Positions 2,160 to 56,985 of a stretch of DNA of 64,000 bases are shown here, one piece after another. The stretch spans positions 9,264,849-9,328,848 of the forward strand of contig OY811975.1 in NCBI GenBank assembly GCA_963681505.1, given 5' to 3'. The notes under the pieces were generated by a model. The model ran no database searches, was not told the origin of the DNA, and saw only the letters and a list, made by a program, of their open reading frames with translations. The DNA is from Eunapius fragilis (lineage: Eukaryota; Porifera; Demospongiae; Spongillida; Spongillidae). A program made the translations under genes and the position numbers. Numbering within the stretch: the first letter of the stretch is position 1; every line of letters starts with the position of its first letter.

Positions 2160-3744
2160 TACAAAAATGTGGTTGGTCGTCTATGTGCTAATTGATGCGC
2201 ATCCACCCCTCGTCGGATGGGGTGGGGCTGGCTTGAGGTGGATAGATGTATGAGTTTATTAACGAAATGCTGCTTATTGTAGTTATTGAAACTAACGGCA
2301 GAGTTGAATATTATAATTACCTGCGAGAGTAATTAAATTTTTGTCTTGATTTTTGTATAACGTTGCATACTTACAGCGCAATGAAAAATAAAAGTCGAAT
2401 TCAGCCCAATTTTTAGTATTTTTTGAGTTTATTTAGAATTCAATTTGAAATAAAAATGTGTTATGACTGAAATTGACCACGCATACGTACGATAGTCCAT
2501 GTTGCGTCATATATGTTGGGTATATAATTGGTATGCTGAAATGATGATCAGATTTTGTCTGTAACGAGAGGATATTAATTGCGAGTCGTTACACTTGCAA
2601 GATGACCGCCGATGTATGGGCCATTTCTCCATATGATGTTTCTCCACGTGAAGTTTATATACCATCTTTAACTTCCTCTTGCGTAACTAGACATGACCTT
2701 GCTTGCACACATGTGAGCCCCAGCTGGAGGTATAGTGGGTACGTTTCCTGGCGTGTATATACTTTAACGTATGGGTGTATGGAGATCATGCTGTAAAACA
2801 CTAAACTTGCATTGTTTTAATGCATTATTGTTGACATTATAAATAATTCAAGTACAGATAAGTACAGCTGAAAAATGGTTTCTACTGAATACCGCATGCA
2901 TGTAGCGGTAAATTGGAAAACGCATGCCGGGTACGTGGGGACGCAAGTTAAAAAAATAGGGGGTCAAAGTCAAAGGTTCCGGTGAGGAAGTATCTGTAAA
3001 GCTTGAACGCCATACATGTGCACACTCTTCACCGAGGAATAGCATTTTCCTAACCATCGGTTTAAAATGTGGCTGATTTAATGAGCAAACCAATATTTAT
3101 GGTTCAGGCATTATCCAAACATTTTGGTAAAAAGCGGTTTGTGGTTCAAACCAATGTGTGGTAACTATGCTCCTCTCTAGTTATTATTTCTGAAATGCTT
3201 TAAAAAAAACATGAGGTATCGGGCCACGTCGATCGGTACCCATGGCACCATAGTGGGTTTTCCACATACAGCAACCGTACACGGCTGTTACAATGGCATT
3301 GAAACGTGGACATTAGGCCCACACTCATGTCACTATGAATGTTAATTACCTAGCAGCATGACTAATTAACTCCCTAGCAACACATGTAATCCGGAAAGCA
3401 GGGTTTTCAAAGCACATCTTTCACAATTTATAGGATTTGGTGGCACAAGTATGTGCAGCGAAGAGCTTGAAACACAATGATACCAATTTCATTGCCCGTC
3501 TATGTATTCTAAAAGAGCCATCCGGTTCAAAGATAAATGGTACAGCGTGGGTACCTATGAATGATAATAAATTGCACGAGTTTGTTACAAATTCCGCCTT
3601 ATTTGTTCTTACTAAAATGTTGTTATATTAGGTGAAGAGGTTTTTTCAGTTGTTTTTGTTGTCGTTACGCTCCCACGCGCGCTCGTGAGTAAGTATTTTA
3701 ACCGCTGAATATGTCAAAACAGTGCCGCCATTTGGGTTTAATAT
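2160..3744. other. No recognisable gene
   Basis: AT-rich sequence with only short open frames (for example 2602-2796 + and 2848-3093 -). None shows a motif, a splice-supported extension or a repeat match elsewhere in the window. I see nothing I can name here. Confidence 0.5.
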
Positions 3745-4050
3745 TTATGTTTTCCTTGGTCTTCTCACTGGCGGCGGCACTGCAGTCGATAAATGGGGTG
3801 AGATATTGAGATAGTGCTCCTTCATTATGCTTTTCAGCTTTAGTGTAGTATCCCTTATTCCGGAGTAAGTTCGTGCTAAGGAGTTGAATTTAGCATGAAT
3901 CGACTCTGCACCTTGCTCTCCCATTAAGCCACAGCCTGCTTGGTGTGTTGACAACCAGTCCACCATGCATGTGGTCCTCTAAGAGATGCATTTTAACAGT
4001 TCTCTTCATGCCCCCAAATGTGCTGTCCAGAGTTGCAAACAACATTTTGA
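3745..4050 (-). pseudogene. RAG1-like last exon: putative catalytic Glu block
   Basis: After an acceptor (tttaaatgaatag) the exon encodes DEAIKMLFATLDSTF and KRTVKMHLLEDHM. A 4-bp CATG duplication shifts the frame, which resumes as VDWLSTHQAGCGLMGEQGAE and SIHAKFNSLARTYSG, followed by MKEHYLNISPHL and a basic C-terminus before a stop. This parallels the RAG1 tail: ASEGNESGNK with the catalytic Glu, FRRFRKMN, and a later HHW motif. Confidence 0.7.
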
Positions 4051-4999
4051 TGGCCTCATCTATTCATTTAAAAAAAAAAAAGAAGTTTAAACCCTGTGCA
4101 TTAAACAACTCATGTATTAAGCACTTACCCAGGCACTTTATCATATCTGGTGTAATGGTGGTGCAATCATATAGAGAATGGCATTTCGAGACCTGTAGAA
4201 ATATGGATCAGAACTTGATGAATAGTTCTTGTGCATCAGCCATAACAGGTGTGTCTTGAGCAGTTGTTAAAGCACAAGAACACAGAGCATCCACATTGGA
4301 GGGCTGAAATGCATGACTTGCATAACATCACATTGTAATCACTTGTTGTGCATGTATATTGGTATACCTTCAGATATGTGTGGACATGGTTTCCAACAAA
4401 ACTACCTCCATGGTAGTGTTGGCGACACACTCCCAATCTGTTCAGGAACAATTGGATGCTCTTCATGCATGGTCCATCATCAACATTGAAGCCCTTTGCT
4501 GATGTTCTGTTGTAGTGCAATGATCTTATTCTCCTTTATTTTTACAAGGGATTTGAATGATTATGAATGCGTAATAAATGCACATTTCACTCACCAGGAC
4601 TTCAACTTGTGTGTGACAGGTACTGGATAGTTCAAGAAGACTAGTTGCAAGCAATTCATTGCTGCCATCAACAATTGAGTAGTATGTTGCCACCTGCTGC
4701 ATGAATAATCTCCTCTTCCTGCATCAAGGTATCTAGTTCACATTTAGCTGCACTGAGATTGATTAGCATGCTGGAATAGGCCTCATATTCTGAACTGTCA
4801 ATGGAGTTTTCCCTCCAATGCATTGCCAGTTTTACATCCAATTGGTGACAGGCTTCCTCAAAGAGGGTGAAAATTTTCTGGAAAATCCCCTGTGTTACAT
4901 GCAAGCCTGGTAAGCAGACCTAAATGTAGTACATGCAAAGTAACTGTATACGCATATTGATGTACAAGTCAGTATACAGTGTTACAAGTCTCAACAAAT

Positions 5000-5340
5000 C
5001 TGTGATAGTGGTATGTTGAAAAAGGGGTACTCTATACAGTTGTTAAACAACTTGGCCTTCTTAAGACCCCCTCTACCTTCTTCCATAAAACGTTGGTGGT
5101 CAAGGAGAATGGAATCCAACGTGCGAGAAATACAAGGCCCTCTAGCTGCTGGTGACATATGCAACTGCTCTAGGGTGATCAGGCATAAAATGCAAGGCTG
5201 CTTCCCTATAAGTTACATGTAGGTAGAAGTTGCATTAGCCATGTTTTTAATTTATGTTCTTACCACTTGTACCAGATTGTCCATACATCCAAGAAAGGAA
5301 CTCATAGTCACCACTGAGGAACACTTTGAACTTGTAGTCC
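5000..5340 (-). pseudogene. RAG1-like exons: central core
   Basis: Two exons (5340-5264 and 5205-5000) join in phase 1. They encode DYKFKVFLSGDYEFLSW and GKQPCILCLITLEQ. In RAG1 the matching place reads FKFIFRGTGYDE, then CTLCDATR, whose Asp is the second catalytic residue. Here the Cys pair is kept but the following residues are Leu-Ile. The 3' splice donor reads CAG|ATTTGT, one base from a normal GT donor. The next exon starts VCLPGLHVTQGIF. Confidence 0.65.
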
Positions 5341-5414
5341 CTGTATGTATAAATCAATGTTAATAATTGTTCTTTCTTATTTCCACTTCATTGTACTGAT
5401 GTTAGCCACTTCAC

Positions 5415-5884
5415 CTCTGAATCTGTCCAGTGCCACATGGAGGTTGGAAAGTGTGTCACTTGCTTCAAAGCAGGAGAAAACACATGTATTGTGGACAGAA
5501 TTCGGTGCTGGGGTGTTGAAAATCTGGAAGTTTATCTTGAAATAGCCACGACCTTTGTCACCACCCAGCTTAAGCCATATCTCATCATCTGGAATCGTTC
5601 CACCATGCCAGGTAAGTGTGCCCTTCCTGCACATAAAATCTCTTAAACAGTTACATGAACAGATGCAATATGTCTTACATTTCATTCTGTCTAAAAGATG
5701 AACAACTTTCCTAGTGAGGCTGGGTGTGTAGGCAAAAGCTGCCCCACGGAGCTCTTCCCCACCATTGCTGAGTTGAAAGGAAAATGGAGCTAGTTCCGCC
5801 TCAAGGTTATCACTAACAAGCTTGTTGTTAAGGGCACGCTGCTTTCTCTCACTGCCTAAGTACACCCCAGCTTGCTTCAACTAC
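5415..5884 (-). pseudogene. RAG1-like exon: core with putative first catalytic Asp
   Basis: Encodes KQAGVYLGSERKQR, then DDEIWLKLGGDKGRGYF and a beta-strand-rich segment (FKINFQIFNTPAPN). The Asp in GGDKG sits where RAG1 carries its first catalytic Asp (CDGMGD). The exon starts with an in-frame TAG (5883-5881) where a Trp codon TGG would fit. The 52-nt stretch from GTAAGAC to GTGCAG inside looks like an intron, but removing it breaks the frame, so I keep it as coding. Confidence 0.65.
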
Positions 5885-5908
5885 CTGTAAGGAAATTAAG
5901 TGAAAGTT

Positions 5909-6168
5909 ATATGGGGCAGTGCAAGAGAAATTCGGGCTTATGTAGGATTTTGAGAAAATTCCAAGACAACTAAATAAAAGTAATGCTTGCCATTGAAATG
6001 TATGGCTAATTAAAAATTCAGCGCTTTGTAGCTCTATGATACACTGTCCAATTTTGGATGCGTAAGAACTATTTTGTAGAGAGCGCTATCCTGTATCCAA
6101 AAACTGTTAAATTTGAAAACTTGAAAAAAAATTGCAAAAGCCCAATTTTCTCTTGCACTGCCCCATAT
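5909..6168. mobile_element. MITE filling an intron of the RAG1-like gene
   Basis: About 260 bp bounded by inverted repeats of about 24 bp (ATATGGGGCAGTGCAAGAGA at the left, its complement at the right). It has no coding capacity and flanking TA-rich bases. It makes up most of the 320-bp intron between 6204 and 5884. A diverged relative lies near 52425-52665, sharing AATTAAAAATTCA and a spaced GTGCGTAA or ATGCGTAA. Confidence 0.85.
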
Positions 6169-6546
6169 ATTCCAATATTCCTTTGCTGCTGCATGTGGCT
6201 AACCTGTTAAGAATCCTTAGTCTATACCAGGGGATACCAAGCATGGACTTAATGGCAAGCCCTTGCTTTGGTGGAATGCTAATAGTGATCCCTGCATCAT
6301 GGAGTACCTTTTCTTTCCTTTCCTCACCCAGACACCTCAGTTCATCCTCAAACAAGATGTCAGCATCCTCAACACCAGCACTCAGGATGGACCGCATCAT
6401 CGGAAGCTCATGAACACGACGCTTGCGTGTAAGAACACTGAGCTCAGAGAGTGGTGCTCGTGGTGTGGATATGCGAACCAATTTCAAAGGCTGTATGACA
6501 AGATCATTGTTCAATTTTCAATGCTGATTTACTCCTATAAACTTAC

Positions 6547-6918
6547 AGTCCCTCCTGTTGGAATCTGTATGCTGCTTTCCTTACCAGCATTTAGCATCTG
6601 GTGCAGGACTTTACTAACAAGTTGCATTTCCTGTCGTTGGACGGTAGTGCAACAATATGAGTCGTAGCTGATTGCCTTCACACTGCTCTTGCATGTACCA
6701 CACACCACCATAACATCATGCAGGAGTTGCTGAATCAGGCTAGAAGCGGGATTGACATCCTTGCACTCCAAGGGCACAGTGGAGTGACAGCAGGGACAGC
6801 GCGCAGCACATAGGTGGATCCACTCTACCAGACAAGTAGCACATACTAGTTTGCCACGTGGAAGCTGCATTGGTTGTGCGAGCACACCCAGACAGATGGA
6901 GCATTCCAGCTCACTCAT
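6547..6918 (-). pseudogene. RAG1-like exon: RING finger plus C-x2-C finger
   Basis: The reading frame opens with MSELECSICLGVLAQP. RING cysteines follow in order: C-x2-C, CATC and CPCC. The usual RING His position looks replaced (KLVCATC). A second zinc motif VVCGTC comes after a leucine-rich stretch, as in RAG1 (RING, then LMVKCPAKEC). The exon ends ACT|GTAAGT in phase 0 and joins 6490 (CCT...) in phase. RAG1's RING is an E3 ubiquitin ligase; activity here is unknown. Confidence 0.8.
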
Positions 6919-7135
6919 TACAGAGAGTGTTTGTGTTGCTGCAAATTGTGGTTGTATGGGGTTTGATTTATTATTGGTGGTGGTGATACAGCCATAATGT
7001 GCTCCACAATTTCAGCAGGACTGTTACCAGAATATGGCCTGTGTTTGGGCCATCTATCCTTGTAGACAGGCATTCAACCCTGGAGTGGTGTAATAAGACA
7101 TCTATATTAGAATGCTAGATTTATCATACTAGTAC

Positions 7136-7473
7136 CTTGCACTCCTCAACACCCCATCTGAACCAATCATATGGCTTTAGTAAGCACTTGTAAGGGCGCT
7201 TCACCTTTTGTGCTGCAACCTTCCTCCTTAACACCAATTCACACTTGCTGCAGAACATTGGTGGGTTGATCTCAGGCAGTATTTGGATACATCAAAGTGG
7301 AAAGCGGTCAGCAACTCCTGGGTGAAGCTTGTGCACTTGTATGCACATGTGTGGCGTTCTATCTTAGCAGACACTACCGCCTGCTTCCTCACCGCTTTTG
7401 ACCCTTTGTTTAGCTTGCACCTACAGACCCGGCATAGGTCTTCCAATTTACAGCTACTACACGCGGTATTCAT
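7136..7473 (-). pseudogene. RAG1-like exon: N-terminal zinc-binding region
   Basis: Starts at ATG 7473. It encodes C-x2-C pairs, then the motifs FHFDV and, after a 1-nt frameshift, PEINPPMFCSKC and a Trp/Cys-containing tail (DWFRWGVEEC). These parallel the RAG1 N-terminal region, where a short IDV motif is followed by IHPTEFCHNCW. The exon ends at a GTACTAG donor. Confidence 0.7.
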
Positions 7474-7479
7474 TACAGT

Positions 7480-8032
7480 TTGTGGTTTGTTACATCGTAC
7501 AACCTATATAGGCCGCGTGGTAGCCTGTGGTATTCATAGCATGACTAACCACTCTTTGAAGTTTACTTCTTACCTTTTAACAGGGAGTTTATAAGGCGGG
7601 ATTTGGAGAAAAGTGGCAACCAAATCGTTGAATTTTAAACCACCAAGATGCGCAACTGTCAGTGTATTGCAAACCGATATGCTTTTATTTGCGCATACAC
7701 AGTATTGGATTAATAAATGATTGCTTTATAGCGAGCATCAAAAAGATTTTGCATTACTGTAACAGGTTTTGCATAAACTACCTCCTTTAGATGTTATTTT
7801 ATAATGAGCTTATTGTACGCCATGCATGTTTTGTCCATACCGTAATTCGGTTTATTTACTCTAATTACAAAACCTATTGTCACGGACGAAACAGCCGTGC
7901 GTGTGGTATGTTGTGTTTGAAATAGGAACCCGGGATAAGGTTGATGTATCGGAAGCTATATCGATTTGATTTGGATGCTAAATCCACATAAGACCCATTT
8001 ACTAAGTACCAGAACATTGCCAAACCAGAAGA
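7480..8032. other. No recognisable gene
   Basis: Upstream flank of the RAG1-like gene. I looked for recombination-signal-like or terminal inverted sequences (CAC-A/T-GTG) matching the 3' flank near 3700 and found none. Any promoter is not distinguishable by eye. Confidence 0.4.
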
Positions 8033-9552: not shown

Positions 9553-11588
9553 ATGGCTGCTTCGGTCCCTGAACAAGATATGGTAGTCATGGCTATGGTT
9601 TTAGATGAATCAGACATTCCTGGGGCCTGTCTGAGTGATCCAATGGATCAGCACACAAAGCCACAGTTACGATGGTGGCTCCTTTGCCGCGGTATTAAGG
9701 CTCCTACATCGTATAGTAAGCAGCAGTTAGTGACAAAGTGAGTCGATTGCGCTAAAAGATATGGTTATGTACATACTACTCCCATAGAATCAACGAAGCG
9801 AAAAGTAACCACTTGCCGATTTTTGATGTTGATGGCACTTTTTTGTATAAGAAACAGCAGCGCTTTATGACGTCTGGCGTACCTGTACCGCTTTGTCCAC
9901 CGCATTTCCCATCTCCACCACTCACTGGCTGGGAAGTTGTCACCAGTGATAGTGTCAAAGACATAGCTCCTAGGTGCCCTGTTGTTACATCAGGTAGGCA
10001 AGGAGCCTTTGCCTTATTGCACTTTACTCTAACTGCAATCATTTATGACAGGCACATTGTATTCTTACCTTGCTCATGGAGTTGGCTGTTCTGAAACCCA
10101 AGGAGCCTTCAGAGCCCTAACGCGTGGATATAATCACTGGGCATCTGGTCGTTTGTGTCAACTTCAAGTACATATTTTGCATCCTCAGTATTGTCACATC
10201 AGAGCTACGCTGACACCTTCAATGAAGTCAGGAAGTTATGAAGTTTATATACTACTAGTTCGAGAAGGATTGGTAACCACAATTCAAGGAGCAACATGTG
10301 AATGTGCAGCTGGGTATGGCAATATATAGCCACTATGTATAATAGTGTTGTTATATATATTTGTCATGCTTATAGGAAATCAGCTAGCTGCACTCATGTT
10401 TCTGCTGTGCTGCATGCTCTTGTTGCAATGACTAGCACAGGCCACATTCAGCTCCCTGACAACGCTGGTGCAACACTTGATGATGAAGAAGAAACGACCT
10501 CGGTTACATCACAGTTGTGTCAATGGAAGATCCCTAAGCAAAGAAAGGAATCAGATCTTCCAATGTCTGCAGCGGTGTTTGAAAAACATGACTATCGCAA
10601 GAATGAAAAGCGAAAAGTTAGTCTCACTGAAGATTTCGATCCCAGGCCACTCGAATTTCGAGGCAATGCTAAGTTTCTACTTCCAAATTTTCTAAAGAGT
10701 GTTCAAAGTGAATCACTGGGCATATCTATCCTCTTAGACCCTCAAAACTGTCATGTACCTACTCCAGCTAGTGCACCCAATCTCCCATCCATATCAGAAC
10801 TAAAAGAAACAGTCACCGCATTTAAAGAGACTCTTATGATGCCTACTACAAAATTGAATGAATTAGAATACACCAATAGAAATCAGCGATATTCTGAACT
10901 ATGGCATTCAGTTCGCCGTTACAGAATAACGGCTTCCAGATTTGGAGACATTCTGCATCGAAAATCAACTACTCCTCCAGATGTGCTAGTTCTAAGTATT
11001 CTAAAACCACGCACTTTCACTTGTGATGCTACCAGCTGGGGAATACAAAATGAGTCAAAAGCTATTGAAGCATATATAGCATTCCAACATCACCAAGGTA
11101 CGCATGTTACAGTTGGACCTGTTGGATTCTTTGTGAGTGCTTCGCATCCATTTCTTGGTGCAACGCCTGATGGAATGGTCCATGATCACACAAATAAGGT
11201 AGATGAGTTTGGTTTTATTGAAGTCAAGTGCCCTTATGTGCAAAGAGATCTCACACCACTAGAAGCTAGCTTAACTTCTGGGTTTTGCTCTAGACAAGTT
11301 TCAAATACATGTAAAACAGCATGTAACTATCCTGAGTTGAAGCTTCGACAGAATCACAAGTACTATGCACAAGTACAGGGTCAGATGGCTGTAGGTGGTA
11401 TGAAGTGGTGTGATTTTGTCATTTTCACCAATAAAGGTATCAATGTGGAAAGGATTGTCTACAATGATGATTATTGGAAACCTCTACTTGCTAAACTTGA
11501 ATCATTTTTTGATAACTGTTTAGGTCCAGAAATTGTTAGTCCCATCCATGTACTAGGATATTCAATACGTGACCTTTCAAAAGTATAA
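9553..11588 (+). CDS. ISL2EU accessory protein: SAP-like, SWIM zinc finger, YqaJ-type nuclease
   Basis: Four exons in consistent phase: 9553-9737, 9788-9993, 10052-10313 and 10376-11588, giving 621 aa. Residues about 35-60 look like a SAP DNA-binding motif (KPQLRWWLLCRGI). A SWIM zinc finger is created across the last intron: CEC in exon 3, then SCTH in exon 4. The C-terminal half is a YqaJ/lambda-exonuclease-like PD-(D/E)XK fold: RRYRITASRFGDIL, then GATPDGM (Asp) and GFIEVKCPYV (Glu-x-Lys). Such nucleases process DNA ends and accompany the transposase in ISL2EU elements; their exact role in transposition is not settled. Small introns (50-62 nt) have normal GT-AG ends. The ATG at 9553 is the first in frame and lies just inside the left inverted repeat. 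Confidence 0.88.
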
Positions 11589-11658: not shown

Positions 11659-13416
11659 CTATTCATCAAAATCACTTTCACTATATTCCTCATTTGATTC
11701 TTCACTATCAATATTTTCAAAGTACTTTTCCACTTCATTCATGCTCCCATTTGATTCAGAAGGCACAAGAACTGGTTTGAAATTTGTTAAGAATGCACAA
11801 ACATAAACTATTTGATTTGAAATCCTACTTAATGATATAGGTAGAGTGTGTTTCAAAATGGTAAAAGATTTTATCCTACCAATTGCTCTTTCAACAATGA
11901 TTCTGGAAGAAGCTATACGCCTTCCTTCTTGGACCTCATCAGCTGAGAATTGTTGCTTGCCATTTAGGAAAGGAGGAATATTAAAGCCTACATCTATTTT
12001 CTGCAACAAATCTTCGATGTTAAAGCCTCTATCTGCCATGATTGAGATGCCAGGCTTATCCTTCAGTTTTGTTAGAAAGCCATATGCATTGGTGAGTTCA
12101 AGATCTGAAATAGACCCGACATACAACGTAGAGATGTACGAAATGCATCCATTAGGTGTGCATGCTATTAAAAACTTTGCAGTGTTATGATGTTTGTAAC
12201 TGCTCCATGTGGATGATTGCATGTGGAGGTCTGAAGGGGTCTCCAAAAATATTTCAGAACCATCTATGATGGCATAAGTAGATGGATATTTGTCTCTAAA
12301 TGCAGGAGGTAGAGTCGCAGAGACCTGCTGAACTGATGGCATCCAATCCACTTCTTTCAGATGATTATATAAAAAGCATATCCAAGTCGTAATGTATCTT
12401 GACACAGCACTCTTAGACACACCAAACCGAAAAGACAAATCTAGTGTCTTTAAATTAAGTCGTAGCTTCATAAGGGTCATAAGAAGCTCAATTGGCTTTA
12501 GTTTAGTCGTTTTTTTTCTCTGATGTGTAGTTTTTTTGCTACCCCAATAATTAAGCATATTAACCGCTGGACCAAGAAATTCATAGAAGGCCAAAAAAAT
12601 TTGGTAGGATTTAAATCCAGTGTAAAAAGAAAACAATCTGTCATCATCCTTTAATTCCTCAACAGTCAACTTTGCTCCTTTGATAATGGTGTTCTTTAGC
12701 TTAGCATTTTCTGTTTCTAGAACTTCTAGCTGAGCAATAAGTGCTGTGTTCAACTTATGCTGTTCATTATCTGCTATAGGACTCACGTGGCTTATTCGGG
12801 ACTGTTCTTCAAGTTCTTCATCTGCCAATATAGGAGCAGAGGGGCACTCATGATCAGCAGAAGACAATGGCAGTTGTAAAGAATTGTGTGGCAGTTTGTG
12901 AACAACAGTTGTTATAGAAAGGGCATCAGGATTAGGCTCCTTATCTTCAATAGAAGAATAACCAGAGGTAGATTCTGTTGCAGAGACATCATTGTTTACA
13001 TCGAGGCTAGGCTGTAATGGATGCGCTAATAAGTCATCAACGATAGGCACTATAGTTGAAGGTTGAGGTAATGTCAACAGCTGATTTGATTCCATTTTTG
13101 ATGATGATGGCGCTGCCAGTAATGCTTGCAAATCATTTCTCTTTTGACGCATCATTCTCCTCGTTGTTCTAGCATCTTTTCGTTTTACAACAGTGGCGAA
13201 CTTCATTCCTAAGAATAACTCGGGCCCATTATTAGGATCACCATCTCGAAAATGCTTCGAGCACACTCTGTAATGTGGCTTCAAAAGATGATCAGAGATG
13301 TTCAAAACATGAAGCCATAGCGCCCGTTTCTCCGAGTCACTTGGTACGCGGTAGAAGCTCAGCTGCTGTTCGTTACGGCTAGTACTTTTGCATACAAAAC
13401 AAATATTACCAGACAT
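11659..13416 (-). CDS. ISL2EU transposase: THAP domain plus IS5-like DDE domain
   Basis: Single-exon 585-aa protein. I start at ATG 13416 because the THAP zinc motif begins there (ICFVC); the frame stays open further upstream but only into the poly-C repeat. THAP features: C-x2-C near residue 6, a conserved Trp (ALWLHVL), and C-x2-H (VCSKHF). A polar linker rich in Ser/Asp and a short leucine-rich coil (LEVLETENAKLKN) follow. Next come a helix-turn-helix segment (FGVSKSAVSRYI) and a DDE_Tnp_4-like core: IIDGSE, IMADRGF and IIVERAIGRIK supply the presumed Asp, Asp and Glu. All are intact. The tail is acidic. It would bind the inverted repeats and catalyse cut-and-paste. It converges on the YqaJ gene with a gap of only 70 bp between their stop codons. 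Confidence 0.92.
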   Translation of the reverse strand: MSGNICFVCKSTSRNEQQLSFYRVPSDSEKRALWLHVLNISDHLLKPHYRVCSKHFRDGDPNNGPELFLGMKFATVVKRKDARTTRRMMRQKRNDLQALLAAPSSSKMESNQLLTLPQPSTIVPIVDDLLAHPLQPSLDVNNDVSATESTSGYSSIEDKEPNPDALSITTVVHKLPHNSLQLPLSSADHECPSAPILADEELEEQSRISHVSPIADNEQHKLNTALIAQLEVLETENAKLKNTIIKGAKLTVEELKDDDRLFSFYTGFKSYQIFLAFYEFLGPAVNMLNYWGSKKTTHQRKKTTKLKPIELLMTLMKLRLNLKTLDLSFRFGVSKSAVSRYITTWICFLYNHLKEVDWMPSVQQVSATLPPAFRDKYPSTYAIIDGSEIFLETPSDLHMQSSTWSSYKHHNTAKFLIACTPNGCISYISTLYVGSISDLELTNAYGFLTKLKDKPGISIMADRGFNIEDLLQKIDVGFNIPPFLNGKQQFSADEVQEGRRIASSRIIVERAIGRIKSFTILKHTLPISLSRISNQIVYVCAFLTNFKPVLVPSESNGSMNEVEKYFENIDSEESNEEYSESDFDE

Positions 13417-13468
13417 GAAACAAAGCCAAACAGCGTGGAGAAAAAGAAGAAACAGTAGCAAAACAGGC

Positions 13469-13546
13469 GGCAATGTGACTCCGGACGTGACGTCAAATAA
13501 TAACTCGGCAATAATCAAAAATTCCGATCTTACGCGAGAAGGGTCT
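13469..13546. repeat. ISL2EU right terminal inverted repeat
   Basis: Reverse complement of the left end: AATGTGACTCCGGACGTG near 13472, ending CGAGAAGGGTCT at 13546. It also lies just upstream of the transposase ATG, so it may hold that gene's promoter (inference). Confidence 0.9.
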
Positions 13547-13549
13547 ATT

Positions 13550-13976
13550 GGCTGAAAGCGGACAGCTCCCCCCCCCCCCCCCCCCCCCCCCCCAAGCTGG
13601 TTGAATCGGCCAAAAGCGGACCTCGCTGGTTGAATCAGCCAAAAGCAGACAGACAGCACCCCCACCCCGCTGGTTGAATCAGCCGAAAGCGGACAGCGGC
13701 CCCCCCCGTGCTGGTTGAATCAGCCAAAGCGGACGGCACCCCCCTCCCCCCCCTGCTGGTTGAATTGGCCGAAAGCAGACAGACAGCACCCACCCTGCTG
13801 GTTGAATCAGCCGAAAGCAGACAGCAACACCCCCCCCCCCCCCCCAACCTGGTTGAAATCCACTGAAAGCAGACAACATATTCGTGGCTGTCAAATGGTG
13901 CCCCCTTGCCCTATTCTGCCCCCCCCCCCCCCCCACCCCCACCCACCTACCTCCAGAAAAGCTGGGTGCACCCATG
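13550..13976. repeat. C-rich minisatellite, unit about 36 bp
   Basis: Repeats of GTTGAATCAGCCGAAAGCGG followed by ACAG and a variable poly-C run, about 7 units. Long Pro- or Gly-rich frames here are artefacts. The same unit is seen at 20760-20925 and 21540-21620. Confidence 0.9.
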
Positions 13977-29896: not shown

Positions 29897-32800
29897 CTAT
29901 GGTTCAATGACTGGGCACTGGAGGTTGTTGGGATCACAGCTACTCCATAAGGTTGTTTTATCTTGGCCTGGTAGCATCCATTCCTTCGAGGCTGCATCCC
30001 ACTTGTGTTTATCACTCCACTCAAATCCACATGGCTATATGTAGGTTGTATAAACGCCCATGTATAAATAATCCACCAATGATCATAATGATAATTATAC
30101 ACAATATGTGATCTTTTAGCAAAAATATTTATGCACTTCACTTACGTATGGAACATTTTTTGAGCACATTTTCACTTCACATGGCTGGAAGGAGATTAAA
30201 GCGTGAAAGCACATACACATGCCCTAATACGCTTACGTAAGGTACATCTTTGTCACACATTTTGACTCCACATGGCTGGAAAAGAATAATACAGTTAGGT
30301 TTTATAATTGTATGTACATGCTTACATATGGAATACCAAAAGTCCCATGGCAAATGTCCGCTCCACAAGGCTATTGAATTAATATCATACAGTTAGCAAT
30401 TTTTGCTTAATAAATACAATTACTTACATATGGAACATTCTTGTGACATATTTCAGCGTCACATGGCTGGAGTGCATCAATTTATGATTATATATGCAGT
30501 GTTATATTATCACTTACATATGGAACATCTTTATCGCACATTGTCGGTGTCTGTGTTTGATAGAAAACAAAAATGCTTATCTTGTTGTCTGGCCATGCAT
30601 GAAGCAGATTGATGCAAAACTGAAATGGTCCATTGAGAAGGACATAACTGCCAGTAAGTTGCAAAGTAACCTGATACTCAAAGCTTCCAGTTAAGGAGAT
30701 TCCTCCCCTAACTAACTCCTGCAATGCATAAAGAAAAGGTTAAAATTAATACATCAATGTTATGCACATAAACTAACAGCAATGGATCCAGTTGTATCAG
30801 CAGCAGCAGATACAATAACTGACGGAACTAATGCTCCTTGAGCTGAGGTGCATTTATTGATGCAAGCTGCTAAGTTAGCATCCACAGCAAGTTGGGCTGT
30901 CAAGCCTATCGAAAAAGTAAGGAATCCGATATACACTGGAATCTTATATTCCATCTTCAGCAGGTCATACACTTGGCTTTTGTAAAGAGGATATGTCCAG
31001 GATTTGCAAGTTGGGATCTCCTTACTGAAGTCTACCAGAACTTTACCAACGATGCTGACGTACAGCCTGTTTTCAACACTGGAACCTCCAGGCTTGTTCT
31101 CACTTAACAGCAGTGCTTCAAACACAGTTACTGTATATCCATATGCAGATGCCTGTGCTATGCCTTTGGCAAACAACTTGAAATTGGTAGGATTAGCGGT
31201 GCCACCCAGTCCTGCAAATGCACCAAAGGCTGTGTCCAGACTAACTTCTGACACTCCAAATGACTTGCCCCATATGTATGCCTTATTGACGGGGTACAGC
31301 TGGAGATCAGCATTCCGGGTATCCCCATCTTCAATTAGATTGTAAAGGTTGCTGTTTTCATTCCAGGTGGTGTCTCTTTTGATCACATGAGTCCAAGACC
31401 TTGGTGCCTTTGGACCCAGCAGGTGTATGTAGTATCCCAACAGCATCCTTAGTTCAGTAGTGTTTTGTGAAGCGTTCAGTATGACTTTGAATAGCTGGTC
31501 GTTTATTGGCTGTGCTTCCAATTCCAATCCAGATATGAGGGAACGTAACACCACCTCAATGAGTTTATCTGATGGATATGACTCAAGAACATGTTGAAGG
31601 GCACTCTGTACCTCTGCAACGCTGGTGCTATACCGTAGAGCATACACAGAAGCCAATCGAATGCTGAGATTGCTCTCGGACATCAATCTAAGAAGAGCAG
31701 TGTTAGCCAGTTTGGATTGAGTGTTTCCCAGGGAGTGGGCATAGTGGACTATGATGGCAGGGTCACTTGTATTGTTGATCCGATTGACCAAGAATTGTAC
31801 AATCTGATATTGCAGCAGAGGCGAAAGGGTGGAGGCCAGTGCGCCATAGGATAGGATTAGAGTGTCAGTTGAGTCATTGCTTGAAGCTATGAGAGCCTCA
31901 ATTTGGTAAAGGATGTCAGGGTGAGCATTTGTAACAAATACCAACAACACAGTCAGGGTGTTCCTCTCCTTTTGATTGTTTGTATTTTGGATGGCATTCA
32001 AGAGTGCCTGCATGATTGAAGCAAAGCATTATCACTGAGCACACCACTAACACATGAGCATGAGACAGAGATGAGTATACCTTTTGTGAATCAATGGAAC
32101 CTTCCAAGCTAAGGAAAGAGTAAAGAAGGACTCTCATTTCTGTGTCCTTCTCGCTGGTGGATGTTGATAGCTGGGTAAAGGGATAAATCGTATTAATAAA
32201 TACTGATGTTTGAATGCAATGCAGCAGCTAAATGTAGCTGGCCATGCCATCGCGGATGAATACATCCTTCTCTATCACCATTTCTTCAAAAAGATTGAGT
32301 TCATTTACCAATGACAGATAATCCATAACTTCTCTGACAGCAGGTAAATATTCTGGCAGGAACCCATTTTCAGACTCCAGCCTTATTATTTTTCTGATCA
32401 ATGCATCTAAAAATAGTAATGTGAAGAAATATGTTAACAAATTAGACCACCACTTAAACACCCCATTATGTACACCGCTTTGCAGTTGAATATTCAGGTG
32501 TATGGTGCGGTCTTTCGGTGATGGAAAACTACTTTATAATATATATATATATATAATATCACATGCATGGCTAATGTCTCAAGTGCACATCGCAAAAACA
32601 ACTCCATAACCCGTTACGTCAGATAAAGACTAATCGCTTTAGTATCTGCGATATTTATAAAAGGTTGTACCATTGAGAAGATATGTTGTTCAGTGAAATG
32701 CACCAATATTACAGTCATAAAAAATCTTAAATCCCGGCTGGCTGATATTGCTGAACACCATCCCATATAAAGTGGTGTGGTAAGGTAAAGACGAGGATTT

Positions 32801-42889: not shown

Positions 42890-44358
42890 TTGTTAGGATC
42901 ACAGCTACTCCATAAGGTTGTTTTATCTTGGCCTGGTAGCATCCATTCCTTCGAGGCTGCATCCCACTTGTGTATATCACTCCACTCAAATCCACATGGC
43001 TATATGTAGGTTGTATAAACATCCATATATAAATAATCCACGAATGATCACAATGATAACTATAAACAATATGTGACCTTTTAGCAAAAATATTTATGCA
43101 CTTCACTTACGTATGGAACATTTTTCGAGCACATTTTCACTTCACATGGCTGGAAGGAGATTAAAGCATGAAAGCACACACACATGCCCTCATACGCTTA
43201 CGTAAGGTACATCTTTGTCACACATTGTGACTCCACATGGCTGGAAAAGAATAATACAGTTAGGTTTTATAATTATATGTATATGCTTACATATGGAATT
43301 CCAAAAGTCCCATGGCAAATGTCCGCTCCACAAGGCTATAGAATTTATATCATACAATTAGCAATTTTTGTCTAATAAATACAATTGCATCAATTTATGA
43401 ATATATATGCAGACTTATATTACCACTTACATACGGAACATCTTTATCGCACATTGTCGGTGTCTGGTTTGATAGAAAACAAAAATGCTTATCGTGTTGT
43501 CTGGCCATGCATGAAGCAGATTGATGCAAAACTGAAATGGTCCATTGAGAAGGACATAACTGCCAGTAAGTTGCAAAGTAACCTGATACTCAAAGCTTCC
43601 AGTTAAGGAGATTCCTCCCTAACTAACTCCTGCAATGCATAAAGAAAAGGTTAACATTAATACATCAATGTTATGCATATAAACTAACAGCAATGGATCC
43701 AGTTGTATCAGCAGCAGCAGATACAATAACTGACGGAACTAATGCTCCTTGAGCTGAGGTGCATTTATTGATGCAAGCTGCTAAGTTAGCATCCACAGCA
43801 AGTTGGGCTGTCAAGCCTATCGAAAAAGTAAGGAATCCGATATACACTGGAATCTTATATTCCATCTTCAGCAGGTCATACACTTGGCTTTTGTAAAGAG
43901 GATATGTCCAGGATTTGCAAGTTGGGATCTCCTTACTGAAGTCTACCAGAACTTTACCAACGATGCTGACGTACAGCCTGTTTTCAACACTGGAACCTCC
44001 AGGCTTGTTCTCACTTAACAGCAGTGCTTCAAACACGGTTACTGTATATCCATATGCAGATGCCTGTGCTATGCCTTTGGCAAAAAACTTGAAATTGGTA
44101 GGATTAGCGGTGCCACCCAGTCCTGCAAATGCACCAAAGGCTGTGTCCAGACTAACTTCTGACACTCCAAATGACTTGCCCCATATGTATGCCTTGTTGA
44201 TGGGGTACAGCTGGAGATCAGCATTCCGGGTATCTCCATCTTCAATTAGATTGTAAAGGTTGCTGTTTTCATTCCAGGTGGTGTCTCTTTTGATCACATG
44301 AGTCCAAGACCTCAGTGCCTTTGGACCCAGCAGGTATATGTAGTATCCCAACAGCATC
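42890..44358 (-). pseudogene. Partial copy of the lipid-transfer gene 3' end
   Basis: About 1.47 kb, nearly identical to 29924-31448. It carries the 3' 680 nt of the big exon (44358-43679), the exon starting ELVRGGISLTGS, and three microexons. It lacks the PCDAEICHKNVPY microexon. The last exon is truncated after CDPNNL. A 2-bp loss near 43467 would shift the frame of the exon ending DVPY. No start region is present and the 5' side is fused to gypsy-2, so it is unlikely to be expressed as a full protein. Confidence 0.88.
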
Positions 44359-44382
44359 AAACTCTTTTCGCCGAGCGGGATG

Positions 44383-45060
44383 TGTGGAGTTAACTGTTGG
44401 ACTATATTTATTGCTAGATGGTATTACATGGGTGTCACGTGATGTATGGTGATGCATTCGTTTACTAATGTCACATGGTGGCAGCGGTTAATGGCTCAAA
44501 TTCGACTAGAACCCCTCCTCCGTTGGATTTTACAGAGGTGGACTCGTGGCCTCGATGGAGAAGCGGTTTCGTGTTGCGTAGGGACTATGCAACAAAGATG
44601 AAAGTCGACAGGTCAGTACATTACTGTATTGTCTGGGGGAAGGAGCGGAAGAGGTGTTGCAGGCAACAGCTACCTCTCTTGAAAAGGCGAAGAAACAGTA
44701 TTGTGAGGCCATTGAGACCTTTGAAACCTATTTTCGCGTAAAAAGAAACGTTATTTACGAGCGCGCTCGGTTCAAGAGCAGGAACCGGTTGGAGGGAACC
44801 GGTTGAACAATATGTTCTGAGTTTACATAGCCTCGCTCGCAACTGTGATTATGGTACCCTCCAGGAAGAGCTTATCAGGGATCGTATAGTTATAGGCATT
44901 CGAGACAAAGCACTGTCTAGGCGTTTCCAGCTTGATGCTGATCTTACGCTGGAGAAAGTAATGAGGTTAGTGCGTCAGAGTGAAGCTGTAGGAGATCAAC
45001 AGAAAGTCCTTCAGGGAAATTTGGAATATACGAAAGAAAGTTTAGTGCGTCAGAATGAAT
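44383..45060 (+). mobile_element. Gypsy-2, 5' half: LTR and gag
   Basis: The LTR at about 44383-44475 starts TGTGGAGTTAACTGTTGG and ends GTCACA. A primer-site-like TGGTGGCAGCGG follows. Gag (LDFTEVDSWPRW, LQATATSLEKAKKQYCEA, VIYERARFKSRNRLEGE, QYVLSLHSLARNCDYG) is broken by frameshifts, one near 44620. It stops at LVRQNES, where it is joined to an inverted LTR. Confidence 0.8.
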
Positions 45061-54387: not shown

Positions 54388-56985
54388 GTGGTGGCTACCA
54401 AATTGAACGCAAAACCCGCACTTGTTGCTACAAAAGATGAATTCGTTTGTGTCGATCGCAAAGTGTATAAAAGCAGTGTCTGGCAATACTTTGGATGGCA
54501 CAAGAAAGCAATCGGTTCTTGCTGGGTTGTTTGTAACATTTGCTATGGATGGGTGTCAAGACATGGGAACAATGCCTCGAACATGAGGTACCACATCACA
54601 TCCGTGCATGGAATAAAGGCACTCCAGCAAGGGTGAGTGTATATGGTAAAATAGACTTGCAGTTGTACTGTGGATACGTTTTCATGTGTACAGCTGCAGG
54701 AAGGAGGAAATGGGCAGCAGCTGCAGCACAAACACTGCCAGACTTGCCAGTGCAACCACTAGTATCAAAGGTGCTGGAAGCATGGACAAGCCTGTAACTG
54801 TGATGAAAGGGGAGAAGCTTGACAGAGCTAATAAGCTGCTGGTTAACGCTTTAACGGCTAATATGCTGCCATCAGCTCTACTGGACAGCCCAGAGTTTAG
54901 AGATCTTCTCGGGTTCATATCTAGTGGAACATACATCCCTCCTCATAGAGCCAAGGTTACTGAGCTGATTGATCATCAGTACCAGAACATGCTGACAAAG
55001 GTTTGTTATTAACCCGGCTTAATAGTAGACTTTGTAGTGAGTGTCACTGAGTGACAACACCAACTGACTATGAACTGATCAATGCTGATTATTCTCATCA
55101 CGCAGATCAAGATGCTGATGGCCAATGCTCCGTCGGTATCAATTACTACAGATGCTGCCTCCATGCACACTGGAGATTCCTATGTAGCTGTAACAGCACA
55201 CTGGCTGGACCCACAATGGAATATGATGTCTTGTGTCCTTGGTGTATCAATGAGCAATGGTAAGAGATTTAAAATTGCCATTTACAATATTGTACTATAT
55301 ACACAATAGTGTCACATACAGCTCAAGAAATTGCATCCATTGTAAAGGAGATGGCCAATACAGAGTTTATGTTGGAGAATCGTTTGGATGCAATAGCCAG
55401 TGACCAGAGGGCAAATTTTGTTGCAGCAGTGAGGTTGCTCATTGAAGAGGGTGTTGGTGAGGAGCAGGTTAGATTATCCTGTCATAAACTGCAGCTATCC
55501 ATCAAGAATGCATTAGAGGTATACATGGATATATGCATGACCATTCAAAGATATACTCTATCTATAGGAAAAGAATTGCCCTGCTACATCGCTGATTGAC
55601 CTCTTCAGGACCATATCCTGCAATATCAACAACAGTCCTATGCTTCTGGATGCGCTGAGAAAAAGACAGCATGATGGCAATGATCTGCCATGTTTGCTCG
55701 ACCTACAGAATCAACTGGATGAAGATAAAGAGGACGAAGGTGAAATAATATCTGAAGAGGAAGATGATGATGATGATGTAATTGCTGAAGGTCCAATTCC
55801 CACATCTGGGAGAAGCCTTAAACTAATAAAGGACATATGCACACGATGGAATTCCACCCTGTATATGTTGCAGAGGTGCCTCCTGCTGAAGAATGCCATC
55901 AACCACGTCTTGGCTGAGAGCAAGTATGCTAATCTTGTTCCTACTGGTGAACAGTGGCTTGCTGTGGAGAAGTTATGTGCCCTTTTAAAGCCATTCCAGA
56001 TAGCTACTGATTTCTTGCAGGGTGAAATTTATCCCACTTTGGGAAGTGTTTCTCGGATTGTTACCACACTTGTACAGGGACTTCAGGGAGCCATGCCACC
56101 AGTTCACTGGCAGTTACGAGAACGATGGAGTGATCTCCCTATAATTGTTCAGCAATCCATCCGACTCCTTCTGTGTATGGGGGCAATCACTCATCCAGGG
56201 CATAAAAGCCTGTCTTGGTTGAATTCTGCTGATAAAAACAGAATTGTTCAGCAGTTGAAAACAGAAATGATCAATGTTTTAGGTGTCAATCCTGCTACGG
56301 CTGAGGAAGATGAATCAGAAGAGGCAGAGCCACCAGCAAAGAAGCCAGCGTGTTCAGAAGAGGAAGATTTCAATTTACTCTTTGGATGAAGGTTTTGTTG
56401 AAATACCCACTGAGCCAAAAGGTCAACTAGTCACCTGTCAGTGCTTCGCTTGCACTTTTCAACACACCCCCTCAAGCGATACACTGATCACTCTCTTGGT
56501 TGCTAGACCGACCACAAACCCTCCTTTGATTTCGATTTGGTCTGGGTGTTTTGCTCAGAAAAAAACCCCACATCACCGGGATTCGAACTCAGCGTTCTGG
56601 GCCCATAACCTGTTTAAATACCCACTGAGCCAAAAGGTAAACTAGTCACCTGTCAGTGCTTCGCTTGCACTTTTCAACAGGTTTAGAGCCAGTAGAAGCT
56701 GATGATCTCCTGAAAGTAATTCAAGACGAATTGGAAAGATATCTGAAGACAGCAGAAACGAATTTTAGAAGTGATGACCCATTGCTATGGTGGAGGAATC
56801 ACGAGTCATGCTTCCCCACCATAGCCAAACTGGCGAGGAAATACTTGTCCATTCCTGCTTCTACTGCACCAGCAGAAAGAGTATTTTCTACCGCGAAAAA
56901 TATTGTTCAAAAGAAGCGGTGGCGCATCCTACCGGAAAGGCTATGTAGATGCATCTTTTTAAGGCAAAATAAAAACCTATTTTAA
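54388..56985 (+). pseudogene. hAT transposase (BED finger), interrupted in last exon
   Basis: Exons in consistent phase: 54388-54632, 54694-55000, 55106-55259, 55310-55518, 55574-56395, then 56680-56985 after an inserted element. The N-terminal BED finger (VWQYFGWHKKAIGS, CNICYGW, HITSVH) has the C2H2 pattern. Core motifs: VSITTDAAS (first Asp), IASDQRANFVAAV (second Asp region), LSCHKLQLSIKNAL (C-x-H), CTRWNSTLYML. The C-terminal dimerisation block is LARKYLSIPASTAPAERVFS. The frame at the insertion is off by one (NLLFG then TGA versus DEGLEPV), so a small indel accompanies the insertion. No ATG is visible before the BED finger; the start may be lost or lie in an unseen exon. Confidence 0.82.
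56396..56679. mobile_element. 284-bp element with LTR-like ends and a tRNA-like promoter
   Basis: Direct repeats of 69 bp at 56396-56464 and 56611-56679 begin TGTT and end CAACA. A 5-bp target duplication GGTTT lies on each side (56391-56395, 56680-56684), as for a TRIM. On minus, TGGCTCAGTGG in the repeat fits a Pol III A box. GAGTTCGAATCCC 31 nt downstream, inside the element, fits a B box, as in tRNA-derived SINEs. It has no coding capacity. It inserted into the last coding exon of the hAT transposase. Confidence 0.8.

Follow-up and report, generated by a model that had tools for sequence, protein, structure and literature searches.

Three groups of mobile elements can be compared with the locus described here. 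The Chapaev transposons (CMC superfamily) are characterised in the account of PMC4079192 by target duplications of 3 to 4 base pairs (bp) and by CAC/GTG ends. They have a DUF1280 transposase core, and in two known subgroups a Chapa zinc region followed by a RING. Chapaev itself was discovered in lancelet and sea anemone. RAG1-like (RAGL) elements such as ProtoRAG and the Transib transposons are instead described with 5-bp target duplications (PMC7204232, PMC4411706), and the Transib transposase is presented in the latter source as having neither a RING nor a Chapa domain. We have analysed a stretch of 64,000 nucleotides (nt) from the freshwater sponge Eunapius fragilis (hereafter the window), whose reading frames reveal on the minus strand an 11-exon gene with its coding span at 3745-7473. 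What had been predicted there from the sequence alone was either a member of the RAG1 family or a transposase with the complete RAG1 architecture. The transposase part of this reading stands and the RAG1-family gene does not: the element that carries the gene very probably belongs to an autonomous Chapaev transposon of the CMC group, as a copy that is now dead.

The assembly searched for relatives comprises 219 megabases (Mb) in 24 contigs, the window lying on contig C5. Of 439 candidates found with a single exon (window 5377-5880), 150 were scored as matches, the exon itself being one of them. We mapped 28 loci with 12 query pieces (L001 being the window itself); 25 of them carry at least five pieces, mostly in the same order, and L009, L016 and L027 carry one or two. 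The key copy is L020, in which 11 exons joined by hand across GT-AG introns give an uninterrupted protein of 951 residues. Spliced alignment of L018, L011, L010 and L022 places ten introns in each at the same residues as in L020 or within two of them, save for the eighth intron of L022 (739 versus 730); one small frame change was needed in each of L018, L011 and L022, and none in L010. Introns measure 48-105 nt in these four copies and 45-62 nt in L020. Protein identity among the five is 43.8-75.1%, and some copies in the genome are 98% alike along the whole element. Further afield 78 related proteins were found, most of them from Ephydatia and the nearest from Ephydatia muelleri. In the tree, an Ephydatia protein is the very close partner of each of three of this genome's five subfamilies. 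L018 joins one of these pairings, and the partner of L022, also from Ephydatia, is a distant one. When viral and genome contigs were scanned for relatives, 14 and 9 pattern matches came up, none of them confirmed. L009 continues from its GGDKG exon into kilobases (kb) of minisatellite, the source of long open frames on either strand, and L016 is highly similar to it over most of its length. Both were rejected as intact genes, their long open frames being minisatellite arrays (read as such in L009).

Both ends could be read in 13 elements, and CAC stands at both tips (CAC...GTG) in 12 of them, the window copy included. Exact 4-bp duplications flank nine of the 13 (L010, L011, L018, L019, L020, L021, L022, L026 and L031/L032), the duplicated words being TATG, ATGT, CTCT, GAAT, CTAC, ACTA, ATCT, GTGG and ACGT. 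L029 and L030 were left out of this count, as they share their site with L031/L032. These four loci (L029-L032, at C1:18.46 Mb and C1:18.53 Mb) form two copies, and because both have an identical insertion site and identical flanks, the insertion was probably followed by duplication of a larger segment.

The protein tells the same class. In Pfam, L020 matches DUF1280 (3.3e-13) and RAG1_imp_bd (PF12560, 6.4e-07), the latter above cut-off, with RING below its own model's cut-off (1.6e-4); the window copy, searched exon by exon, gave DUF1280 and RING (Table 1). Among 28 of the 78 relatives, selected by us and carrying the DUF1280 label beforehand, this family was found in 28, RAG1_imp_bd in 12 and the commonest RING model in eight (E up to 1). 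The motifs of the CMC group, called C(2)C, LH, H(4)H and DDE in PMC4079192, can be read in L020 as PCLYC, GLHI, HLLEDH, GGDKG, GDYEF and GEQGAES, with counterparts in the window and a predicted catalytic role. The elements combine CAC...GTG ends, a 3- to 4-bp duplication, a DUF1280 core, CMC motifs and a Chapa zinc region followed by a RING, whereas the 5-bp duplication and core-only transposase of Transib were not found. Some readings do not fit this assignment: the 3' tip of L019 is CATGG rather than CACGG, the flanks of L025 lie in a run of G, L012 and the window copy agree at three of four bases, and L015 is without a duplication. We propose that intact relatives produce from 11 exons one transposase with a Chapa zinc region, a RING plus zinc finger, a basic linker and a DDE core with C(2)C...H(4)H; the core would cut at the CAC tips, by a cleavage chemistry that we infer, and insertion would proceed with the 4-bp stagger to which the observed duplications point. 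The sponge elements differ from known Chapaev in their host, in their 11 exons and in the fixed spacing of their ends.

These ends are bipartite: each has CACGG as its tip, and an inner block, which reads TGGAAACTAGG or TGGACATTAGG, follows at a spacing of 16 bp on the 5' side and 27 bp on the 3' side. Of the six families compared, three show the 16/27 spacing clearly when taken singly, and for all six it emerges once counts are summed over families or made across the genome. CACGG followed by 2-32 free bases and TGGAAACTAGG (pattern 1) occurs at 101 places in the genome, and its reversed control at four. Out of 100 places listed, 63 have the block at 16, 31 at 27 and six elsewhere. Among the matches listed, 19 convergent pairs lie within 10 kb of each other, and every one is 16+27. 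With TGGACATTAGG as the block (pattern 2) there are 122 places, and one for the control; the 100 listed divide into 43 at 16, 42 at 27, five at 26, two at 28 and eight elsewhere (one of the eight is an end listed twice). Their 23 convergent pairs within 12 kb include 13 of 16+27, five of 16+26 and two of 16+28. In family E, the most divergent, 47 of 49 5' ends are at 16 and 46 of 47 3' ends at 27, with controls at 0. An offset scan with one representative per family found 27 to be the best 3' position in B, C and D (shuffle P at most 0.0005), and summed over the six families this position scores 54 of 66, the next one 33.

Several points weigh against a strict rule. Two pattern-2 pairs are 27+27 and one is 16+22; both 27+27 pairs share one partner, which also has a nearer 16+27 mate. 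In the offset scan E is best at 27 but with P 0.40, and A and the window family are tied (P 0.37 and 0.07), so that the case for 16/27 rests on the sum over families and on the genome-wide counts. The patterns require CACGG and the exact block, and ends having lost either escape them. Copies within a family are near-identical, and the counts are therefore not independent events. A single 11-bp insertion, passed on by descent, would look no different. The spacing would then be a functionless fossil of one ancestral event in the sponge lineage, a quite possible reading, if short of our expectation, and the main rival to any pairing rule. It predicts that the extra bases of the 3' end (CATTGAA...) should be recognisably common to the families, as they are. 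On the other side, the length of the spacing has been kept between families with only 44% transposase identity, while the introns of the same elements vary between 45 and 105 nt; the 15 pattern-2 ends off 16 or 27 among the 100 listed (nine by one base, six by more) also speak against it. We found no report of a fixed 16/27 spacing or of asymmetric Chapaev ends in the literature searched, which left Repbase Reports outside, and the asymmetry may be a new observation. The same 16/27 ends also bound elements of about 2.0 kb (e.g., C1:3534573-3536558, C4:3180732-3182731 and C5:7535078-7537078), which are too short for the transposase and therefore probably non-autonomous. By eye, many family E ends are likewise about 2.9 kb apart.

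The offset between the two ends, 11 bp, is that between the 12- and 23-recombination signal sequences (RSS) of V(D)J recombination and amounts to about one turn of DNA. Transib shares the CAC tip, and some of its members have 12/23-like ends (PMC8355894). That source gives these as the only case of such asymmetry outside V(D)J recombination, and states that flanked RAGL gene pairs do not obey it. In ProtoRAG the spacers are 27/31 (PMC8289069), an offset of 4 bp. An alternative to the fossil, which we put forward tentatively and hold to be doubtful, is that the basic linker between RING and core, positioned like the nonamer-binding domain (NBD) of RAG1, would hold the inner block, with one short and one long end brought together in the synaptic complex, in a 12/23-like rule. 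It seems unlikely, although worth stating, that such a Chapaev rule is mechanically equivalent to the 12/23 rule, with an NBD-like domain recognising the inner block and with Chapa and RING already part of the transposase. If it were, both the pairing rule and the domain order would be older than the split between Chapaev and Transib/RAG, and RAG2 would not be needed. The origin of the 12/23 rule is an open question, and an 11-bp offset across six Chapaev families, with some copies 98% alike and an intact transposase, offers a natural RAG2-free test system.

How far the resemblance to RAG1 goes can be judged region by region. All the blocks of the original prediction are present where it had placed them in the minus-strand frames: an N-terminal Cys-rich exon, a RING and then a C-x2-C finger, a basic linker, GGDKG, DYKFKVFLSGDYEF, CILC and GEQGAESIHAKFN. 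The order of domains (N-terminal zinc region, RING plus zinc finger, DDE core) is that of RAG1. The predicted count of at least 11 exons is likewise borne out: each of the five related copies has 11 exons, and their introns fall at identical or almost identical residues. For the N-terminal part, the best match of L020 in PDB is RAG1 (residues 2-247, E 3.5e-8), ahead of TRAF2 (7.3e-5). With family profile A2, 13 RAG1 sequences lead (6.9e-9 to 3.7e-8) and LNX2 follows at 3.5e-5; the lead is smaller with profile A1 (RAG1 8.5e-9, TRAF6 4.3e-7, and one RAG1 form at 2.6e-6), and for the relative P0093 RAG1 leads at 1.9e-6, the best non-RAG1 protein reaching 2.0e-4. Because RAG1 outscores other RING proteins in these searches, the N-terminal zinc/RING region is, at the level of sequence, RAG1-like beyond a generic RING. 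Exon 1 of the window copy had no Pfam match in the exon-by-exon search; its counterpart in L020 is the part that matches PF12560 and also RAG1. Over the exon 3 region the family profiles extend, weakly, into zebrafish RAG1.

The core behaves differently. The best match of profile A3 (14 sequences) is mouse RAG1, at E 0.03 only, in three colinear stretches of 13.5 (the last), 1.1 and -1.6 bits, of which only the last scores; in this alignment GDYEF stands opposite GTGYDE and GEQGAES opposite EGNES. Profile A4 (21 sequences) found no RAG1 among its 12 PDB matches. The core-only profiles thus fail to reach RAG1 significantly, and the similarity of the core is weak as judged from sequence. Two other points weaken the kinship: the RING of these elements lacks, by eye, a histidine present in RAG1, and in PMC3985635, where DUF1280 is equated with the Chapaev transposases and placed in the same clade as RAG1, RAG1 separated early in the clustering. 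RAG1 profile matches across both RING and core, proposed as a check of the original prediction, were therefore obtained for the N-terminal and RING part and, for the core, at E 0.03 or not at all.

That the sponge has a domesticated or transposon-borne RAG1-like gene (RAGL/ProtoRAG) is very improbable. Such a gene would account for the N-terminal and RING region matching RAG1 best in the PDB, for the shared domain order and for the colinearity of the core in the weak alignment; DDE with C2...H2 motifs, the CAC tip and the unequal ends are also common to both. It does not account for duplications of 4 rather than 5 bp. In L020 (4391 bp) the coding span is flanked by no more than 480 and 514 bp, which leaves no room for a RAG2-like gene, and hence no RAG2L. 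The RAG1 core family PF12940 was not among the six Pfam families matched by L020, nor among 25 listed of the 44 matched by the 28 relatives, and a genome search for it gave no match, its positive controls giving none either. A RAG1 or RAGL gene is therefore rejected on duplication length, on the lack of space for RAG2 in L020 and on the absence of PF12940 from the searches above, and the DUF1280 core favours Chapaev. For the Chapaev transposon the fusion of RING and core is not new, since RING-bearing Chapaevs were reported in 2015 (PMC4411706), where Kapitonov and Koonin already argued from them for the great age of this fusion; what the original prediction found is thus explained, and known in kind.

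A working sponge host gene with an E3 ligase or recombinase function, suggested by the length, the conservation, the RING and the label of the relative P0099, is next to inconceivable given the many copies, terminal repeats, target duplications and broken frame of the window copy, and was rejected on the multicopy state and that broken copy. P0099, which has the same RAG1-like domains, is named 'E3 ubiquitin-protein ligase NRDP1' by its source and is probably a mislabelled transposase; its source label scpid presumably stands for Sycon ciliatum.

The Chapaev copy in the window is dead, and intact relatives are present in the same genome. Aligned with up to five related copies, the window copy shows at least three premature stop codons, three indels that change the frame and the loss of two splice donors; each defect is absent at that place from at least two relatives, which carry others of their own. 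The 5' alignment limit of the element is common to L029, L031 and L015, and the 3' limit to L032, L002/L003 and L015. Position 7903 was rejected as the 5' limit, as the alignment had continued into the flank, four bases beyond the tip, which lies at 7899. The close copy L031/L032 has an exact duplication (ACGT). The 5' inner block of the window copy agrees with its 3' end at eight of 11 bases, and one other offset scores equally well. Exon limits of the window gene were set by eye (Table 1).

Table 1. Coordinates in the window of the Chapaev-type element, its ends and its putative exons.
Feature	Position	Strand	Remarks
Whole element	3280-7899	-	4620 bp, one decayed Chapaev-type copy; ends CACGGCTGTT...AACAGCCGTG
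5' flank	7900-7903		CACG, 4-bp target duplication; 3/4 bases identical to 3' flank
3' flank	3276-3279		TACG, other half of target duplication; flank reading
5' (short) end	7873-7899	-	tip CACGG, inner block 16 bp inside; offset comparison
3' (long) end	3280-3317	-	tip CACGG, inner block TGGACATTAGG 27 bp inside; genome pattern match C5:9268128-9268165
Exon 1	7136-7473	-	N-terminal zinc, Chapa / RAG1 importin-binding-like region; window frames and L020 homology
Exon 2	6547-7079	-	RING (about 6787-6903, E 0.045 in window copy), then C-x2-C finger
Exon 3	6204-6490	-	basic region, position like RAG1 NBD/DDBD
Exon 4	5679-5884	-	premature stop at exon start; lower limit approximate
Exon 5	5381-5626	-	GGDKG, predicted first catalytic Asp 5557-5559; DUF1280 1.7e-11; donor lost
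Exon 6	5264-5340	-	GDYEF, predicted second catalytic Asp 5307-5309; aligned to RAG1 GTGYDE in negative-score stretch
Exon 7	5000-5205	-	C(2)C motif (CILC); splice donor lost in window copy
Exon 8	4595-4919	-	LH motif region; frame-changing insertion in window copy
Exon 9	4368-4533	-	GNHVH block
Exon 10	4129-4303	-	premature stop in window copy
Exon 11	3745-4059	-	H(4)H motif (HLLEDH), GEQGAESIH, stop codon; frame-changing insertion in window copy
Presumed catalytic Glu	3904-3906	-	in exon 11 GEQGAESIH; aligned to RAG1 EGNES (core profile)

Other sequences were noticed in the same window. Beside the Chapaev element, an uninterrupted frame of 686 residues (11659-13719, minus strand) with THAP, HTH_Tnp_4 and DDE_Tnp_4 domains is a second, unrelated transposase. 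Between the two transposases lies a frame of 428 residues (10302-11588, plus strand) with YqaJ / viral alkaline exonuclease domains. Two long minus-strand frames about 12 kb apart (30760-32028 and 43671-44423) are nearly identical along a long stretch, which by sequence marks them as a recent local gene duplication. Finally, a frame of 273 residues (55568-56389, plus strand) resembles by eye the C-terminal part of a hAT-type transposase.

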